Of a stretch of 48,900 bases of DNA, positions 5,652-48,900 are shown one piece after another (positions within the stretch are counted from its first letter, which is position 1; each line of letters begins with the position of its first letter). This stretch comes from Terriglobales bacterium (GTDB lineage: Bacteria > Acidobacteriota > Terriglobia > Terriglobales > Acidobacteriaceae), in assembly GCA_030038475.1 (NCBI GenBank), contig JASHOU010000099.1, positions 1-48,900 of the forward strand, given 5' to 3'. A model generated the notes under the pieces. The model was not told the origin of the DNA and searched no databases. It saw only the letters and a program-made list of their open reading frames with translations. Both the position numbers and the translations under genes were made by a program.

Positions 5652-5704
5652 TCGCTTGCAAGTACTTTAGGGCTTTCTGGGACGATGCTCAAGAGGGAAA
5701 TCGG

Positions 5705-5768
5705 TTCCCAGCTCTCAGCCCTTACTCGGTTTTGCTGAGAACTGACAACTGAGAACTGAAAACTTGCC
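5705..5768. repeat. Heptad intergenic element with short inverted arm
   Basis: Four successive 7-mers from 5734 follow the pattern ACTGANA (for example ACTGACA at 5741 and ACTGAGA at 5748). An inverted arm at 5705-5718 carries two 7-mers ending in CAG; CAGCTCTCAG at 5709 pairs with CTGAGAACTG at 5735 with one mismatch. It lies just after the S41 protease gene. Confidence 0.6.
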
Positions 5769-9510: not shown

Positions 9511-9623
9511 AGGATTAGAGGTCGGATCTCAGAGGTTAGAATCGGAGGTTGGATCGGATCAGACAGCGGCGAATGAGATTTTAACCTCTGCCACCTGACC
9601 TCTCACCTCCAGACCTCCGATTC
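9511..9623. repeat. Heptad-like intergenic element with three interleaved inverted pairs
   Basis: A GAGGT-rich arm (9511-9560) is followed by an ACCTC-rich arm (9579-9623). Three complementary word pairs are exact: AGAGGTC 9517 with GACCTCT 9597, CAGAGGTTA 9530 with TAACCTCTG 9582, and GAATCGGAGGT 9539 with ACCTCCGATTC 9613. Spacing between words is mostly multiples of 7. It lies between the chemoreceptor and the cytochrome gene. Confidence 0.6.
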
Positions 9624-24652: not shown

Positions 24653-24743
24653 GCAAATGTGGAAGGGTCTGGCGCAAATGTTTTGCTGCGAATGTTTTGT
24701 TGCGAATGCCGTGTTGAAAATGTTTTGCTGCAAGTGCTCGTTG
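24653..24743. repeat. 14-bp (2 x 7) tandem array between the TPR and HD-GYP genes
   Basis: Five consecutive 14-bp units start at 24674, 24688, 24702, 24716 and 24730, of the type GCGAATGTTTTGTT. A further GCAAATG at 24653 lies exactly 21 bp before the first unit, keeping the 7-bp phase. The array is just upstream of the HD-GYP start and just after the TPR gene stop codon. Confidence 0.7.
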
Positions 24744-32463: not shown

Positions 32464-33512
<1,049 letters not shown>

Positions 33513-33982: not shown

Positions 33983-34014
33983 TGCGTTAGTAGATTCTTG
34001 CGTTAGTAGATTCT
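33983..34014. repeat. Perfect 16-bp tandem duplication at a gene end
   Basis: TGCGTTAGTAGATTCT occurs twice without interruption. The stop codon of the convergent-side membrane protein gene lies in one copy, and the other copy lies outside, so this is a recent micro-duplication. Confidence 0.8.
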
Positions 34015-41870: not shown

Positions 41871-41905
41871 TGACTGAAGGCTGATAGCTGACGGCTGATA
41901 GCTGC
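41871..41905. repeat. Five-unit heptad array
   Basis: Five consecutive 7-mers of the pattern NNGCTGA, such as AGGCTGA (41878) and TAGCTGA (41885), follow without gaps. It lies 3' of the PYROXD2-like gene. Confidence 0.65.
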
Positions 41906-43681: not shown

Positions 43682-45271
43682 TCACGCCGCTTTCCCATCT
43701 TTCAGGATTTCAAGCGCCGCCAGCCGTCCCGGCGCGCCCATGATGCCGCCACCGGGATGTGTGGCCGAGCCACACAGATAAAGGTTCTTGATCGGCGAGC
43801 GGAATTGCGCCCAGCCTGCAACCGGGCGCAAGAAAAATAATTGTTCGAGCGAAAGCTCGCCCTGGAAAATGTTGCCCTCGCTCAATCCCCATGTGCGTTC
43901 CAGATCGAGCGGCGTAACGACCTGGCGATGCAGAATGATGTCTTTGATGTTGGGCGCGTATTCGGCAATGGTATTGACGACGTTGTCGCCGAATTTATCT
44001 TTCTCTGTATCCCAGTCGAGCCCGGATGCGAGTTTGTAAGGCGCATACTGCACGAAGCAGGAAAGAATGTGTTTGCCCGGCGGAGCGAGCGAAGTATCGG
44101 TGAGCGTCGGAATTACCATGTCGATATAAGGGCGCGAAGACCAGTGACCGTATTTCGCTTCGTCATAAGCTTTCTCCATGTATTCGACGCTCGGCGAAAT
44201 GGAGATAGCGCCGCGCAGATGTGCGCCGACTCCAGGCATGCACTTGAAATTCGGCAAGCCGTCGAGCGCCATATTCACCTTGCCGGATGACCCGCGGAAC
44301 TTGTAGCGCTTCACGCCTTCCATGAATTCATCGGGCAGGTTGCCGGGCTCGATCATCTTGGTGAAGGTGAGCCGAGGATCGACGCTGGAAGACACAACAT
44401 CGGCGTAAATTTCGTCGCCATTGCCGAGCACAACTCCGCTGGCGCGTCCGTTCTTGACGAGAATTTTAGCAATTGGAGCTTCGGTGCGAATCTCGGCGCC
44501 AGCTTCGCGCGCAGCATCGGCAATCGCGTTCGAAATCGCCCCGGTGCCTCCTCGTGCGAATCCCCAGGCTCGGAAAGCGCCGTCAATCTCGCCCATGTAG
44601 TGATGCAGCAGAACGTAGGCGGTTCCCGGCGAGCGCACGCCAAGGAAAGTTCCAATAATGCCCGAGGCCGACATCGTTGCCTTGAGCACATCGGTCTCAA
44701 ACCATTGGTCGAGAAAGTCGATCGCGCTCATGGTCATGAGCTGAACCTGGTTGTATTTGTCTTCGCTCGATATGCCCTGAAAGCGGCGGCCGATGAAAAG
44801 CAGTTTCATCAATTCTTTTGGATTCAGCGTCGCTGGATCGGGCGGAATCATGCCGAGAATCGGCTTGACGAAGCGGCACATGGCCTGCATCGCCTTGCCG
44901 AATTCGTCGTAGGCTTCGGCATCGACGCGCGAGTGGCGCGCGATTTCACGATGCGTTTTGCCGTGATCGTTCACGCGCCACAAGTAATTGCCGCTTGGCA
45001 TGGGCGTGAAAGTTCCGTCGAGAGGAAGGATTTCGAGTCCGTGGCGGGGAAGATCGAGATCGCGAATGATTTCGGGGCGCAACAGCGAAACGACGTAGGA
45101 GCAAACGGAAAACTTGAAGCCGGGAAAAACTTCTTCCGTGCACGCCGCGCCACCAAGAATGTGGCGGCGTTCGAGCACCAGCACTTTCTTGCCCGCTCTG
45201 GCGAGATAGGCGGCGTGGGTGAGGCCGTTGTGGCCTCCGCCAATCACGATTACATCGTAAGGAGCAGCCAT
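43682..45271 (-). CDS. PYROXD2-like FAD-dependent oxidoreductase, first copy
   Basis: The 529-residue protein is a close relative of the next gene: DVIVIGGGHNGLTHAAYLARAG (about 6-27), GGAACTEEVFPGFKFSVCSYVVS, GTFLGVRSPGTAYVLLHHYMGEIDGAFRAWGF with RGGTGAISNAIADAAREAGAEIRTEA, and C-terminal KNLYLCGSATHPGGGIMGAPG. It belongs to the PYROXD2/phytoene dehydrogenase-like family of FAD oxidases, which oxidise hydrophobic or amine substrates. The duplication followed by divergence suggests a heteromeric enzyme or two substrates. The ATG at 45271 gives a standard N-terminus; a short heptad array directly precedes it. It is divergent from the GcvT-like/Rieske pair, which suggests a joint oxidative demethylation route, but that is inference. 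Confidence 0.88.
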   Translation of the reverse strand: MAAPYDVIVIGGGHNGLTHAAYLARAGKKVLVLERRHILGGAACTEEVFPGFKFSVCSYVVSLLRPEIIRDLDLPRHGLEILPLDGTFTPMPSGNYLWRVNDHGKTHREIARHSRVDAEAYDEFGKAMQAMCRFVKPILGMIPPDPATLNPKELMKLLFIGRRFQGISSEDKYNQVQLMTMSAIDFLDQWFETDVLKATMSASGIIGTFLGVRSPGTAYVLLHHYMGEIDGAFRAWGFARGGTGAISNAIADAAREAGAEIRTEAPIAKILVKNGRASGVVLGNGDEIYADVVSSSVDPRLTFTKMIEPGNLPDEFMEGVKRYKFRGSSGKVNMALDGLPNFKCMPGVGAHLRGAISISPSVEYMEKAYDEAKYGHWSSRPYIDMVIPTLTDTSLAPPGKHILSCFVQYAPYKLASGLDWDTEKDKFGDNVVNTIAEYAPNIKDIILHRQVVTPLDLERTWGLSEGNIFQGELSLEQLFFLRPVAGWAQFRSPIKNLYLCGSATHPGGGIMGAPGRLAALEILKDGKAA

Positions 45272-45298
45272 TAGCTCTTGGCCTCTAGCTCTTAGCTT
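45271..45298. repeat. Four-unit heptad array in a gene leader
   Basis: Four 7-mers (TTAGCTC, TTGGCCT and two more of the type NTAGCTN) follow one another directly before the ATG of the first FAD oxidase gene, so the array would be transcribed as the 5' leader. Confidence 0.6.
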
Positions 45299-45429
45299 TC
45301 GCACTCAGGGATGACGAATGAGGATACCACCGCAGAGAAGCGGGCAGCGGATCAGAGACCGCTCGGAAGGACCGACCATTGAATTATACGGCTCATCGAC
45401 TGGACTGAGACCACATTTTAGCAGACATA

Positions 45430-47065: not shown

Positions 47066-48325
47066 CTAGCCTAGTAGTTTTACGAACTGCTCCGGCTGGC
47101 CTTCGAAGCCCGGGAATACTGTTTTCAAATCCTTATTCCCCAGATATCGCGAGACGACTTCACTCAGGACCATTCTGAAGTCGGTGGTCAACGCCAGGTC
47201 GCGCCCTTCGTAGAGCTGCGACCGATCGAGACCGGGCCAGCGCCCGTAAACCTTGCCGCCGCGCACGGGGCCGCCTAACACGAACATCACGTTGGCGTGG
47301 CCGTGGTCGGTGCCTCGGTTGCCGTTTTCGCGCGCGGTGCGGCCAAATTCCGACATGGTTACAACGACGGTGTCTTCCGCTAAATCGCCGAGGTCGTTCC
47401 AGAAGGCGGCGATCGACTGCGAGAAATCGCCGAGAACGTTAGCGATCTGACCTTCGGTGTTGCCTTCGTTGACGTGGTGATCCCAGCCGCCGATATCGGC
47501 GAAGGCGACCTGCACACCGAGGTTGGCTTTGATGATTTGGGCGAGCTGCTTCAGGCTGTCGCCGAAGCGTCCCTTGGGATAATTCGCATTGGGTGCGGGC
47601 GTGTATTTCGAGGGATCGGCGCTTTTCAGCATCTTGACGGCGTCGAAGGTCTCTTCGCCGGTGCCGTGCAACACAGTATCGACCGAGTGGTCGTACATGG
47701 CTTCGAAGGTGTTTGAGATCGGCGCAGCGCTCGGATTCTTGCCGCCGACCGAGAAATCGTTCAGGTTGTTGACGGCCACGGCCGGCTCCTGGCCGGAGAG
47801 AATGCGCGGCAGCGACGGGCCGAGCGCAATCGCACGAAATGGCGACTGAGGCGAATCGTGGAGCGCAGAATTCGAGGGAAGATCGCGCAGAGCGCGGTTC
47901 AGCCAGCCGTCGTCAGTGACCTTCAGACCGGGTGTGCCGGATTCCATGAAGTCCTGCGCATCGAAATGCGAGCGCGTGGGGTCGGGCGACCCGGCGGCGT
48001 GGACGATGGCGAGATGGTTCTGCTTCCAGAGCGGCTGAAACGATGCCATCGCCGGATGCAACCCGAAAAAGCCATCGAGATCGAGCACGGATTTCTTCGG
48101 GATGTTGATGGTTGGCCGCATCGCGTAGTAGGCCGGCTCGCCGTGGGGCACAACGATGTTGAGGCCGTCGGCCGCTCCGCGCTGGAAGATGACGACCAGG
48201 CGCTTGCTGCGAGTGCCGGGATCGGCCGCGCCAAAGGCGGCGCGCGCCAGAAAACTCGGCACCGCGGTTGTGCCGACTACGGCTAAGGCTCCATTGCGAA
48301 GAAACACTCGACGGGTTATTGACAT
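47066..48325 (-). CDS. DUF1501 protein, Tat-exported
   Basis: The 419-residue protein starts with a twin-arginine signal (SITRRVFLRNGALAVVGTTAVPSFLARAAFG). The mature part fits the DUF1501 family of sulfatase-like/alkaline-phosphatase-fold exported proteins: RLVVIFQRGAADGLNIVVPHGEPAYYAMRPTI near the start, HPAMASFQPLWKQNHLAIVHAAGSPDPTRSHFDAQDFMESG and VVTMSEFGRTARENGNRGTDHGHANVMFVLGGPVRGG at the end. Function is not established; family members pair with DUF1800 genes, and that gene is directly upstream here. GGAGG lies 5 nt before the ATG. The 79 bp between the two genes hold a perfect ten-heptad inverted element. Confidence 0.92.
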   Translation of the reverse strand: MSITRRVFLRNGALAVVGTTAVPSFLARAAFGAADPGTRSKRLVVIFQRGAADGLNIVVPHGEPAYYAMRPTINIPKKSVLDLDGFFGLHPAMASFQPLWKQNHLAIVHAAGSPDPTRSHFDAQDFMESGTPGLKVTDDGWLNRALRDLPSNSALHDSPQSPFRAIALGPSLPRILSGQEPAVAVNNLNDFSVGGKNPSAAPISNTFEAMYDHSVDTVLHGTGEETFDAVKMLKSADPSKYTPAPNANYPKGRFGDSLKQLAQIIKANLGVQVAFADIGGWDHHVNEGNTEGQIANVLGDFSQSIAAFWNDLGDLAEDTVVVTMSEFGRTARENGNRGTDHGHANVMFVLGGPVRGGKVYGRWPGLDRSQLYEGRDLALTTDFRMVLSEVVSRYLGNKDLKTVFPGFEGQPEQFVKLLG

Positions 48326-48337
48326 AATTGCCTCCGC

Positions 48338-48407
48338 TTCGAGCTACGAGCTGCGAGCTTCGAGCGAACGCGGTTGGTCGCAGCTCGTGGCTCGTAGCTC
48401 ATAGCTA
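48338..48407. repeat. Ten-heptad inverted element between DUF1800 and DUF1501 genes
   Basis: The element is exactly 70 bp and reads as ten 7-mers in phase. Units 1-4 follow NNCGAGC (for example TACGAGC), units 5-6 are a spacer, and units 7-10 follow NNNGCTC/NNAGCTN, the reverse complement in style (GTAGCTC). The last 3 bp are the stop codon of the DUF1800 gene. It could form a long imperfect hairpin. Confidence 0.75.
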
Positions 48408-48900
48408 TCTTCTCTGAAACTCCGGCGACCCCAAGATCAGTCCCGCAATCGCGGCCACGTTAGGCGGACGCTTCGGATCATCCAGGCGGCGCTGACTGAT
48501 GGCGGGGTCTTCGAGTTGCTTGCTGATCGTGTCGTGCGTTTGCCGTGAAATATCGCCCGCCAGCAGGGCGTTTTCCAGGTTCGCCAGAGTTTGCTGGGCG
48601 TCGATCATTCCAGAGGGCGTCGCCGATAACGTTCCTGGTGCCGCTCCCGATGTTGTGGTTGCGCCTGCCAAGGTTGCGGAATCCACCTTTACACCGCGAA
48701 CTTTTCCCCCGGCCAGGCTAAGCGCAAAATTCATGCGTGCCAACAGCGCCGAAGAATTCACCCAGGTTTCGGCCTTCATCGAATAGCCGGTCGGCGGCAA
48801 CATACCATAAGGCATCATGCCCATGTTGTTGAGCGTAGCTACCAGTGCGCGCGCGTCGTCCACTTGTGCGCCACTGGCGCGCACGGCGGAGAGCACAAAT
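48405..48900 (-). CDS. DUF1800 protein, C-terminal part
   Basis: The right edge of the window cuts this gene; about 164 residues of its C-terminus remain. The DUF1800 signature end is clear: MPYGMLPPTGYSMKAETWVNSSALLARMNFALSLAGGKV, and the closing IAGLILGSPEFQRR. A Ser/Thr/Gly/Ala-rich insert (TLAGATTTSGAAPGTLSATPSG) separates the two. DUF1800 proteins are large exported proteins of unknown function that occur next to DUF1501 genes, as here. The pair is transcribed toward lower coordinates, DUF1800 first. Confidence 0.88.
   Translation of the reverse strand, partial: FVLSAVRASGAQVDDARALVATLNNMGMMPYGMLPPTGYSMKAETWVNSSALLARMNFALSLAGGKVRGVKVDSATLAGATTTSGAAPGTLSATPSGMIDAQQTLANLENALLAGDISRQTHDTISKQLEDPAISQRRLDDPKRPPNVAAIAGLILGSPEFQRR

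Follow-up and report, generated by a model that had tools for sequence, protein, structure and literature searches.

The intergenic gap between a DUF1800 and a DUF1501 gene, near the end of a 48,900-nucleotide stretch of Terriglobales DNA (hereafter the window), holds a 70-bp element that is one of a large class of small intergenic elements. Members of the class, seen in a group of soil Acidobacteria, have two inverted arms, each of about four 7- or 8-bp units, around a spacer that is typically 15-30 bp long. The same layout recurs at no fewer than 18 orthologous gaps in 81 genomes, in a ribosomal protein operon where the homology of the sites is beyond doubt. On the evidence, they look more like fast-turning, mobile-like elements than like control sites that stay fixed. 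What is new here is the many-word, word-swapping form; heptamer pairs with fixed words are already known from Xanthomonas and Geobacter.

The element between DUF1800 and DUF1501

The 70 bp at 48,338-48,407 divide, as a first-pass annotation of the window had proposed, into exactly ten heptads. A left arm of four units of the type NNCGAGC (48,338-48,365; TTCGAGC, TACGAGC, TGCGAGC, TTCGAGC) is followed by a 14-bp spacer (48,366-48,379; GAACGCG, GTTGGTC) and a right arm of four units of the inverted word (48,380-48,407; GCAGCTC, GTGGCTC, GTAGCTC, ATAGCTA); sequence reading delimits the right arm and the spacer, whose two heptad lengths are not repeat units. Tandem Repeats Finder (TRF) reports period 7 at 48,336-48,365, the lag-7 score of 16.4 has p=0.001, the lowest value that 1000 dinucleotide shuffles allow, and folding gives z -5.7, or -5.95 on a slightly longer stretch. 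Both flanking genes are on the minus strand: the DUF1800 gene upstream, represented by its C-terminal part at the window edge (48,405-48,896; Pfam PF08811, E 5.5e-19), and the DUF1501 gene downstream in the transcribed direction (47,066-48,325; PF07394, E 4e-38), with its start codon at 48,323-48,325. The 79-bp gap between stop and start codons (48,326-48,404, minus strand), which relatives also have, is nearly all taken up by the element, whose last heptad overlaps the DUF1800 stop codon TAG (48,405-48,407). No Rfam family reached its gathering score anywhere in the window.

The annotation had placed the element among seven sites of the window sharing a 7/14-bp period and, often, the inverted layout. 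Six of the seven are significant at lag 7, 14 or 8; the exception, at 9511, has no significant period-7, -8 or -14 array (p=0.060 against shuffles). Lags 7 and 14 were found as proposed, and lag 8 too, so the grammar is one of 7 and 8 bp. A second array of the class lies at site 5705 (5690-5764; CAGCTCTCAGC... then CTGAGAACTGACAACTGAGAACTG; best at lag 7, p=0.001). Site 24653 is a 14-bp direct array without an inverted arm (24,663-24,736; lag 14, p=0.001), site 32464 an octad array, AATTGGGN (32,466-32,499; lag 8 and not 7, p=0.001), site 41871 an array of CTGAAGG / CTGATAG (41,874-41,904; lag 14, p=0.001; TRF periods 7 and 14), and site 45271 a weak array (AGCTCTTGGCCTCTAGCTCTTAGC; 45,267-45,300; lag 14, p=0.004). 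The inverted two-arm layout is clear at 48,338. Folding makes it likely at 9511 (z -3.1) and gives marginal support at 5705 (z -1.9); sites 24653, 32464, 41871 and 45271 fold no better than shuffles (z +1.5, -0.5, -0.1 and +0.3). A perfect 16-bp direct duplication (TGCGTTAGTAGATTCT twice) was also seen at 33,983-34,014, at the edge of a convergent gap.

Beyond the window, 330 kb of the same genome were scanned, comprising the window and 18 stretches, a biased sample in that many were picked for a contig match to the element. Segments scoring at least 12 number 36, 24 and 29 at lags 7, 8 and 14; Markov-1 sequence matched in dinucleotide content gives 0, 0 and 1. Lags 15 and 16 also stand out (24 and 15 segments against 0-1); the lag-15 signal looks partly coding or 7+8 in origin and was left out of use. 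Arrays of 15-bp period, possibly 7+8 units or coding repeats, occur for instance at L022:3860-3915 and L026:876-942.

The same gap in relatives

Nineteen genomes of the genus, the window's own included, were searched for DUF1501, and 12 have a near-full-length match together with upstream sequence (loci L031-L042); a thirteenth locus, L043, is cut off and was left out of the gap comparison. In 11 of the 12, a lag-7 segment scoring 8.8-24.4 lies within the 150 nt upstream of DUF1501, where the best of five control lags reaches 0-5.6. In the twelfth genome, G012, the lag-7 score is 6.2 against a control of 6.0 and the array is visible by eye only. Absence of arrays from close relatives at all loci, which the annotation had named as counting against its view, is not what these gaps show. 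About five different words, read by eye, occupy the gap across the genus: GAGCTAC in the window's genome, G010 and G018; TTAGC in G008; GCTGA in G005, G011, G003 and G013; ACTGA in G002 and, in its by-eye array, G012; and GCTAG in G001 and G015. Relatives thus have an array in the gap with differing words, so the layout persists at the site as the word changes, and the annotation's idea of one grammar with different vocabulary, strongly supported, extends to orthologous gaps. None of seven DUF1501 loci in the sister family rises above its own control lags (scores 0-6.0), and five of them have gaps of only 4-43 bp.

Gaps of the ribosomal protein operon

The S10/spc operon of the window's genome lies on contig 151. 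Ten of its genes are confirmed by Pfam and the remaining names were assigned from order and sequence, the first two genes of the set probably being rplC and rplD. Its gaps were compared first in 15 congeners and five sister-family genomes and then in 80 named Terriglobales records, 81 with the window's genome; most are metagenome-assembled, one per species, so that no event is seen directly. The 18 gaps used have median lengths of 18-145 bp in this group and are mostly shorter than 40 bp in the sister family, those outside the 18 having near-zero length or badly projected ends. Start codons were projected from tblastn, some wrongly, with ATG at the projected site in 224 of 260 sampled gaps.

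From 1861 operon gaps, the 1129 of at least 50 bp and free of N were scored, with a cut-off of 10. Lag 7 was found in 500 of them against one shuffled gap, and lag 8 in 104, again against one; control lags 5, 6 and 9-12 gave 1-3 gaps each, and lags 13 and 17 gave 9 and 14. The period-7 signal is thus far stronger than in shuffled intergenic DNA, the comparison that the annotation had suggested, and unit length 7 is over-represented against other lengths, as in heptameric simple sequence repeats (LSSRs). The segments total 1055 (868 of period 7, 187 of period 8), in 699 of the 1129 gaps. Each unit combines a fixed core with two or three positions that vary, as in [G/A]CTGA-N-[A/G]. Rounded unit numbers are four for 403 of the 868 period-7 segments, five for 235 and six for 39, and four for 102 of the 187 period-8 segments; below four units, the threshold for detection limits the count. 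At least ten word families are spread across many gaps, and a single genome has a median of six word classes in this operon (genomes with eight or more classed gaps), the classes being coarse regular expressions with a threshold of three hits that leave many gaps as "other" or "short".

The first and last segments of a gap are complementary in 81% of 350 multi-segment gaps, against 18% with partners swapped between gaps, and are direct repeats in 6.6%. An inner stem AAAACC/GGTTTT was considered as a core common to all families and rejected; in five families its own pairing is no better than swapped. In many genomes the rpsC-rplP and rplP-rpmC gaps each hold two non-pairing arrays of unrelated words (AGAAGTC/AGATTGC then CTGAGAA).

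In the window's genome, arrays occupy 20 of 35 tandem gaps in two ribosomal stretches (L015, and L016 with rplM, rpsI, rpsB and tsf) against 24 of 121 elsewhere (p=7e-5); a 400-kb stretch of G015 has them in 10 of 126 tandem gaps. Outside the ribosomal stretches, genes adjoining arrays have higher codon adaptation (p=0.0004 in G015, p=0.04 in the window's genome). Convergent gaps carry arrays as well (3 of 27 in the window's genome, 3 of 31 in G015), as do divergent gaps (5 of 37 and 3 of 52), by the counts of a purpose-made simple gene caller. Among 56 rplF loci, some genera of the family are without arrays and others have them in further words. Of 15 rplF loci from other families, L220 carries five arrays, and five more show a single hit each, at the level of control lags.

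Known heptamer repeats

Cyanobacterial STRRs consist of a fixed heptanucleotide word; in the present elements, the families differ between gaps and genomes. This contrast, drawn in the first-pass annotation, is partly right, but the Nostoc trnL(UAA) intron hairpin has two repeat classes (PMC3488679). As that source describes it, stem P6b of the intron consists of degenerate heptanucleotides that pair into a hairpin, as here, with the two classes at the same site, copy-number change and insertions of non-repeat sequence; it is one intron locus with two classes, whereas the present families are spread over many gaps (PMC3488679).

Heptamer pairs of Xanthomonas and Geobacter resemble the present elements in layout. 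In Xanthomonas, GGGAATC / GGGANTN heptamers are mostly in four units and mostly intergenic, with 70-75 inverted pairs per genome, and they and the GGGGA(T/C)T repeats of Nostoc PCC 7120 have been studied as formers of G-quadruplexes (PMC4692102). Those heptads, too, are described as degenerate, with a fixed core and variable positions, and as varying in length and sequence between related species (PMC4692102). Inverted pairing and about four units per array are also found in the operon gaps. The Xanthomonas and Nostoc repeats belong, in the same account, to one word family (PMC4692102), whereas here no one word is common to a genome's arrays and words are exchanged at orthologous gaps. The putative global-regulator sites of Geobacter metallireducens (classes 1-3 and a family of four heptanucleotides) likewise include, in classes 1 and 2, three to five tandem hepta- or octanucleotides in opposite-strand pairs at variable distance (PMC2700814). 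By that report the sites were not identified in G. sulfurreducens, some class 1 sites have an insertion sequence at a constant distance, and the words are few and fixed, in one genome (PMC2700814), unlike the case here; binding of IHF/HU is a suggestion of that paper.

Two further systems offer comparisons. TAACTGA repeats of Beggiatoaceae are, like the present arrays, intergenic heptamers just upstream of start codons, including those of ribosomal protein genes, but are reported as one fixed word in direct repeats with one inverted case (PMC4679880). REP elements with GTAG/CGTC tags are small, mostly intergenic, strain-variable palindromes, but are built of a family-specific sequence of 20-40 bp and a tetranucleotide tag, with no heptad period in the account cited (PMC3733652). 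In the element of the window, the one checked for this, there is no such tag beside a family-specific stem (by eye, its gap is free of CGTC and has GTAG only within an arm), and the stem words are not fixed. In short, unit length, unit number and layout are shared with known heptamer pairs, and the many words and their exchange are what differs.

Reports of heptamer excess in bacterial genomes go back to 2007, and a slippage conjecture is the sole explanation offered. In the open-access papers searched, no report of word exchange at orthologous gaps was found, nor any that joins heptamer tandem repeats, Acidobacteria and intergenic position. With the same layout at so many homologous sites, "why seven, why inverted, why four" becomes a comparative question with many replicates, and the tests below separate three explanations: copying, slippage and RNA selection.

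Probable gain and loss, and possible copying, of elements

We tentatively favor the reading that these are mobile-like, non-autonomous passengers whose lifestyle resembles that of REPs or MITEs, because gaps alternate between empty and filled states, at one locus a Shine-Dalgarno tract is kept on the downstream side of some filled sites, and a minority of spacers are shared. Whole units would be copied in from other loci and lost again by deletion, and the gaps would tolerate them since genes stay unbroken; a trans-acting protein might read the arms as recognition sites, by period and inversion more than by exact word. If so, this would be a class of non-autonomous element set by period and layout, not by sequence, and similarity searches would miss it.

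The rpsS-rplV gap shows such alternation, short states of 3-22 bp being interspersed on the tree with 27 filled states of 44-125 bp. The Shine-Dalgarno tract GAGAC is present in 22 of 30 rpsS-rplV gaps of 6-29 bp. Of the 27 filled sites, 8 have it within the final 16 nt; for filled gaps at nine other loci the figure is 16 of 517 (p=5e-6), a difference that would follow if some elements had inserted upstream of the tract. That the tract is kept in those eight only, and absent from the last 16 nt of the other 19, counts against mobile passengers. The short state is conserved, and unsystematic reading brought no target-site duplication to notice. In one genome, L101, the gap looks like the deletion remnant of an element that its relative L074 still has. 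Over 18 gaps, changes between filled and empty states sum to 175 on the tree against 214 for shuffled tips, and word changes by parsimony to 279 against 298, so that some phylogenetic signal is left.

Copying is supported for a minority of elements and may still be the general route, but fast copy-paste should have left more. Within a genome, 1.04% of 6550 element pairs from different loci have 20-mers in common; across genomes, where most pairs come from more distant relatives, 0.24% of 200,000 sampled pairs do. A blastn search of 564 elements, four loci being left out, found matches for 313 of 2299 possible pairs from different loci of the same genome, 42 of them aligned over at least 80% of the longer element. 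Not one of the 2299 possible same-genome pairs of the operon set reaches 85% identity over 80% of the length, which is hard to square with fast copy-paste, and 11 pairs from different loci of different genomes do. The 48,338 element has no recent full-length copy in the window's genome (next best match 82%, over positions 11-73 of a 95-nt query), nor does the rplF-rplR element (best match 75%, over positions 3-99 of 112). Spacers have a relative at another locus in another genome in 16 of 114 CTGA, 2 of 30 GTTTC, 2 of 30 ATTAC, 0 of 22 CGAC and 0 of 24 GCTA cases, shuffled spacers having none in any of the five families. The view that spacers are wholly unique is therefore too strong (20 of 220 have relatives), and the 200 of 220 without such a relative weigh against mobile passengers. 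The annotation's claim that the arrays are not copies of one element agrees with the many words present.

The enrichment in ribosomal operons is unexpected for a neutral passenger. Nor are arrays concentrated near Y1 transposase (RAYT) genes: 20 Y1 stretches hold 14 arrays, 0.10/kb against 0.19 in the sample of the window's genome and 0.05/kb in G015. For gene comparisons, array-bearing and array-free genomes were hand-picked from three gaps or the operon; G134, which has no array, was left out, as were several genomes that have just one or two. Y1 transposase genes have a median of 8 in 21 array-bearing and 2 in 23 array-free genomes (p=0.0008, uncorrected for genome size or phylogeny). As a permissive change, loss of SbcCD, a palindrome nuclease, was rejected, since SbcD is below cut-off in all 44 genomes of the phylum, with arrays or not. 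The NCBIfam search gave a weak match in 10 of the 44. Of 14 named genomes searched as a control, only 8 scored above the cut-off. The 44 genomes may lack the usual palindrome nuclease or have a divergent form of it.

Possible pairing of the arms in operon mRNA

That the elements are selected RNA hairpins of operon mRNAs, acting in translational coupling, processing or as barriers to decay, with their sequence free as long as the arms pair, seems unlikely. It would account for the stability of the gaps, whose folds surpass those of shuffles (z below -2 in 149 of 250 sampled gaps, median -2.7), for the crowding of arrays into ribosomal operons and beside genes of higher codon adaptation, for the other, non-heptad hairpins that some gaps hold, and for the position of the arrays, which end a median of 7.5 nt ahead of the projected start codon (260 sampled gaps). 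The pairing itself does not behave as a structured RNA should, neither base-level covariation nor wobble-tolerant pairing being found in 284 two-arm gaps. Mismatches on the sense strand show no preference for G-U over A-C (0.506 against 0.508 permuted), on which ground base-pair-level selection was rejected, and the real order of units brings no gain in folding stability (p=0.24). Shine-Dalgarno words are not specially paired (mean 0.56; 0.54-0.75 in 5-nt bins from -60 to -5). Also against RNA hairpins are the arrays in convergent and divergent gaps, those without a complementary partner in rplP-rpmC and rpsC-rplP, and a sister family that is mostly without arrays. The transcribed hairpins may affect operon mRNA; selection for this at the level of base pairs was not seen.

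Word turnover and the slippage conjecture

Generation in place is unlikely as well. By this account, replication slippage makes the heptad arrays, with 7 nt as a polymerase contact length, template switching at a hairpin makes the inverted arm, and words then drift and homogenize. The annotation had suggested slippage plus inversion, and the slippage idea is in print (Mrazek 2007, as reported in PMC4679880 and PMC4692102). The dominance of periods 7, 8 and their multiples, the variation of words from locus to locus and the lack of relatives for most spacers would all follow.

The arms, however, have the word in common and not the unit order. Permuting the units of one arm leaves complementarity unchanged (16.13 real against 16.20 permuted, 336 two-arm gaps) and does not lower stability either, so an arm is not the mirror of its partner unit by unit, and slippage plus inversion was rejected. 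Unit number peaks at four to five with a steep fall at six, below which peak the threshold applies, and units are degenerate, rather than near-perfect tandem copies with the length variation of slippage that an LSSR would have. Indels in period-7 elements number 23 of 7 nt, 19 of 6 nt, 9 of 8 nt and 89 of 1 nt, so those of 7 nt are only slightly in excess.

Words turn over quickly, the exchange taking in both arms. The closest pair, L090/L097, is 94.3% identical over 7.4 kb of coding sequence. Its named word classes differ at five gaps, and of 14 gaps compared, only three reach an alignment identity of 0.65. Pairs less than 8% diverged have the same word class in 21 of 48 gaps worded in both; at 8-16% divergence the fraction is about 0.32, near the within-locus chance of 0.28. 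Where words have changed, the new word is related to the old no more often than the locus baseline, contrary to drift (0.40-0.51 of changed pairs; for any pair of genomes the figure is 0.44 within a locus, and it is 0.30 when loci are pooled).

Polarity and a conjectured writing of the arrays

A bolder conjecture, distinctly unlikely, is that a dedicated process, such as the annotation had mentioned, writes short inverted arrays into intergenic DNA from a small, lineage-specific stock of words, rewriting the word within a few percent of divergence as orthologous gaps retain their layout, and that the four-unit pairs of Xanthomonas and Geobacter belong to the same widespread system. We have stronger doubts about one specific form of writing, in which, ahead of joining, a polymerase extends both 3' ends of a break by about four units of a single short word. 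From this one would expect the same inverted word to either side, units that vary independently and a polarity that does not change, and the first two agree with the shared word, the unmatched unit order and the four-unit arrays.

The polarity, inside against outside, is strong and not absolute for most word families; since both strands of an inverted repeat read alike, it belongs mainly to the element itself. T/G-rich forms, as break-end addition would have it, are confined to the 5' half of gaps (5':3' counts of 128:0 for TCAG, 54:0 for GTTTC, 62:0 for GTCG and 41:1 for GTAAT). A/C-rich forms favor the 3' half without being exclusive to it (CTGA 43:169, CGAC 18:41, GAAAC 11:34), and AGCT-type words, the one in the window included, with their self-complementary core AGCT, have little polarity (AGCTC 10:11); both are difficulties for addition at break ends. 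Elsewhere in two genomes, 14 of 22 multi-segment gaps run T-then-A; no two-segment gap among the 22 runs A-then-T, and one three-segment gap ends so. Ku, present in 23 of 24 genomes, counts in favor, but it fails to tell genomes with arrays from those without. Reverse transcriptase was rejected as the user of a template: 7 of the 12 genomes with arrays and 4 of the 12 without have hits, which leaves 5 array-bearing genomes, the window's own among them, with none. The searches for SbcD, Y1, Ku and reverse transcriptase genes thus point to no enzyme. Some spacers, moreover, are common to several loci.

Import of diverged alleles by homologous recombination, bringing different words to orthologous gaps, is very improbable and was rejected: flanking genes are similar enough to recombine (the 40 closest pairs are 88-94% identical) and downstream flanks are less conserved at replaced gaps (0.878, n=73) than at conserved ones (0.935, n=97), a difference that may stem in part from mis-projected start codons, but upstream flanks hardly differ (0.897 against 0.905), the flanks of non-conserved L090/L097 gaps are mostly 0.92-1.0 identical, and the origin of the words would be left unexplained.

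Other sequences in the same gaps

A second class of intergenic hairpin, GTAGAGACGCGGCTTGCCGCGTCTC...CGTCTCTAC, occurs in L054, L074, L093, L101 and others and replaces heptad elements in several ribosomal gaps, e.g., rpmD-rplO and rplB-rpsS; these hairpins look like GTAG/CGTC-type REPs. A repeat of the type CTTCGCTTCGCTCAGGATGACA lies in gaps of L063 (rplP-rpmC) and L083 (rplN-rplX), at L019:8179-8311 and in the 400-kb stretch of G015, sometimes inside the spacer of a heptad element. In the rpsK-rpsD gap, a conserved CAATCGGGACGAAAGGGTCGCCACCCCGTAAACCGATT precedes rpsD in L093, L077, L073 and L075, and another conserved form, TCCGGGACGAAGGGTGAAGCCAAACCTGTAAACCGGTCA, is found in L080, L101 and L107; this conserved stretch is possibly a leader RNA.
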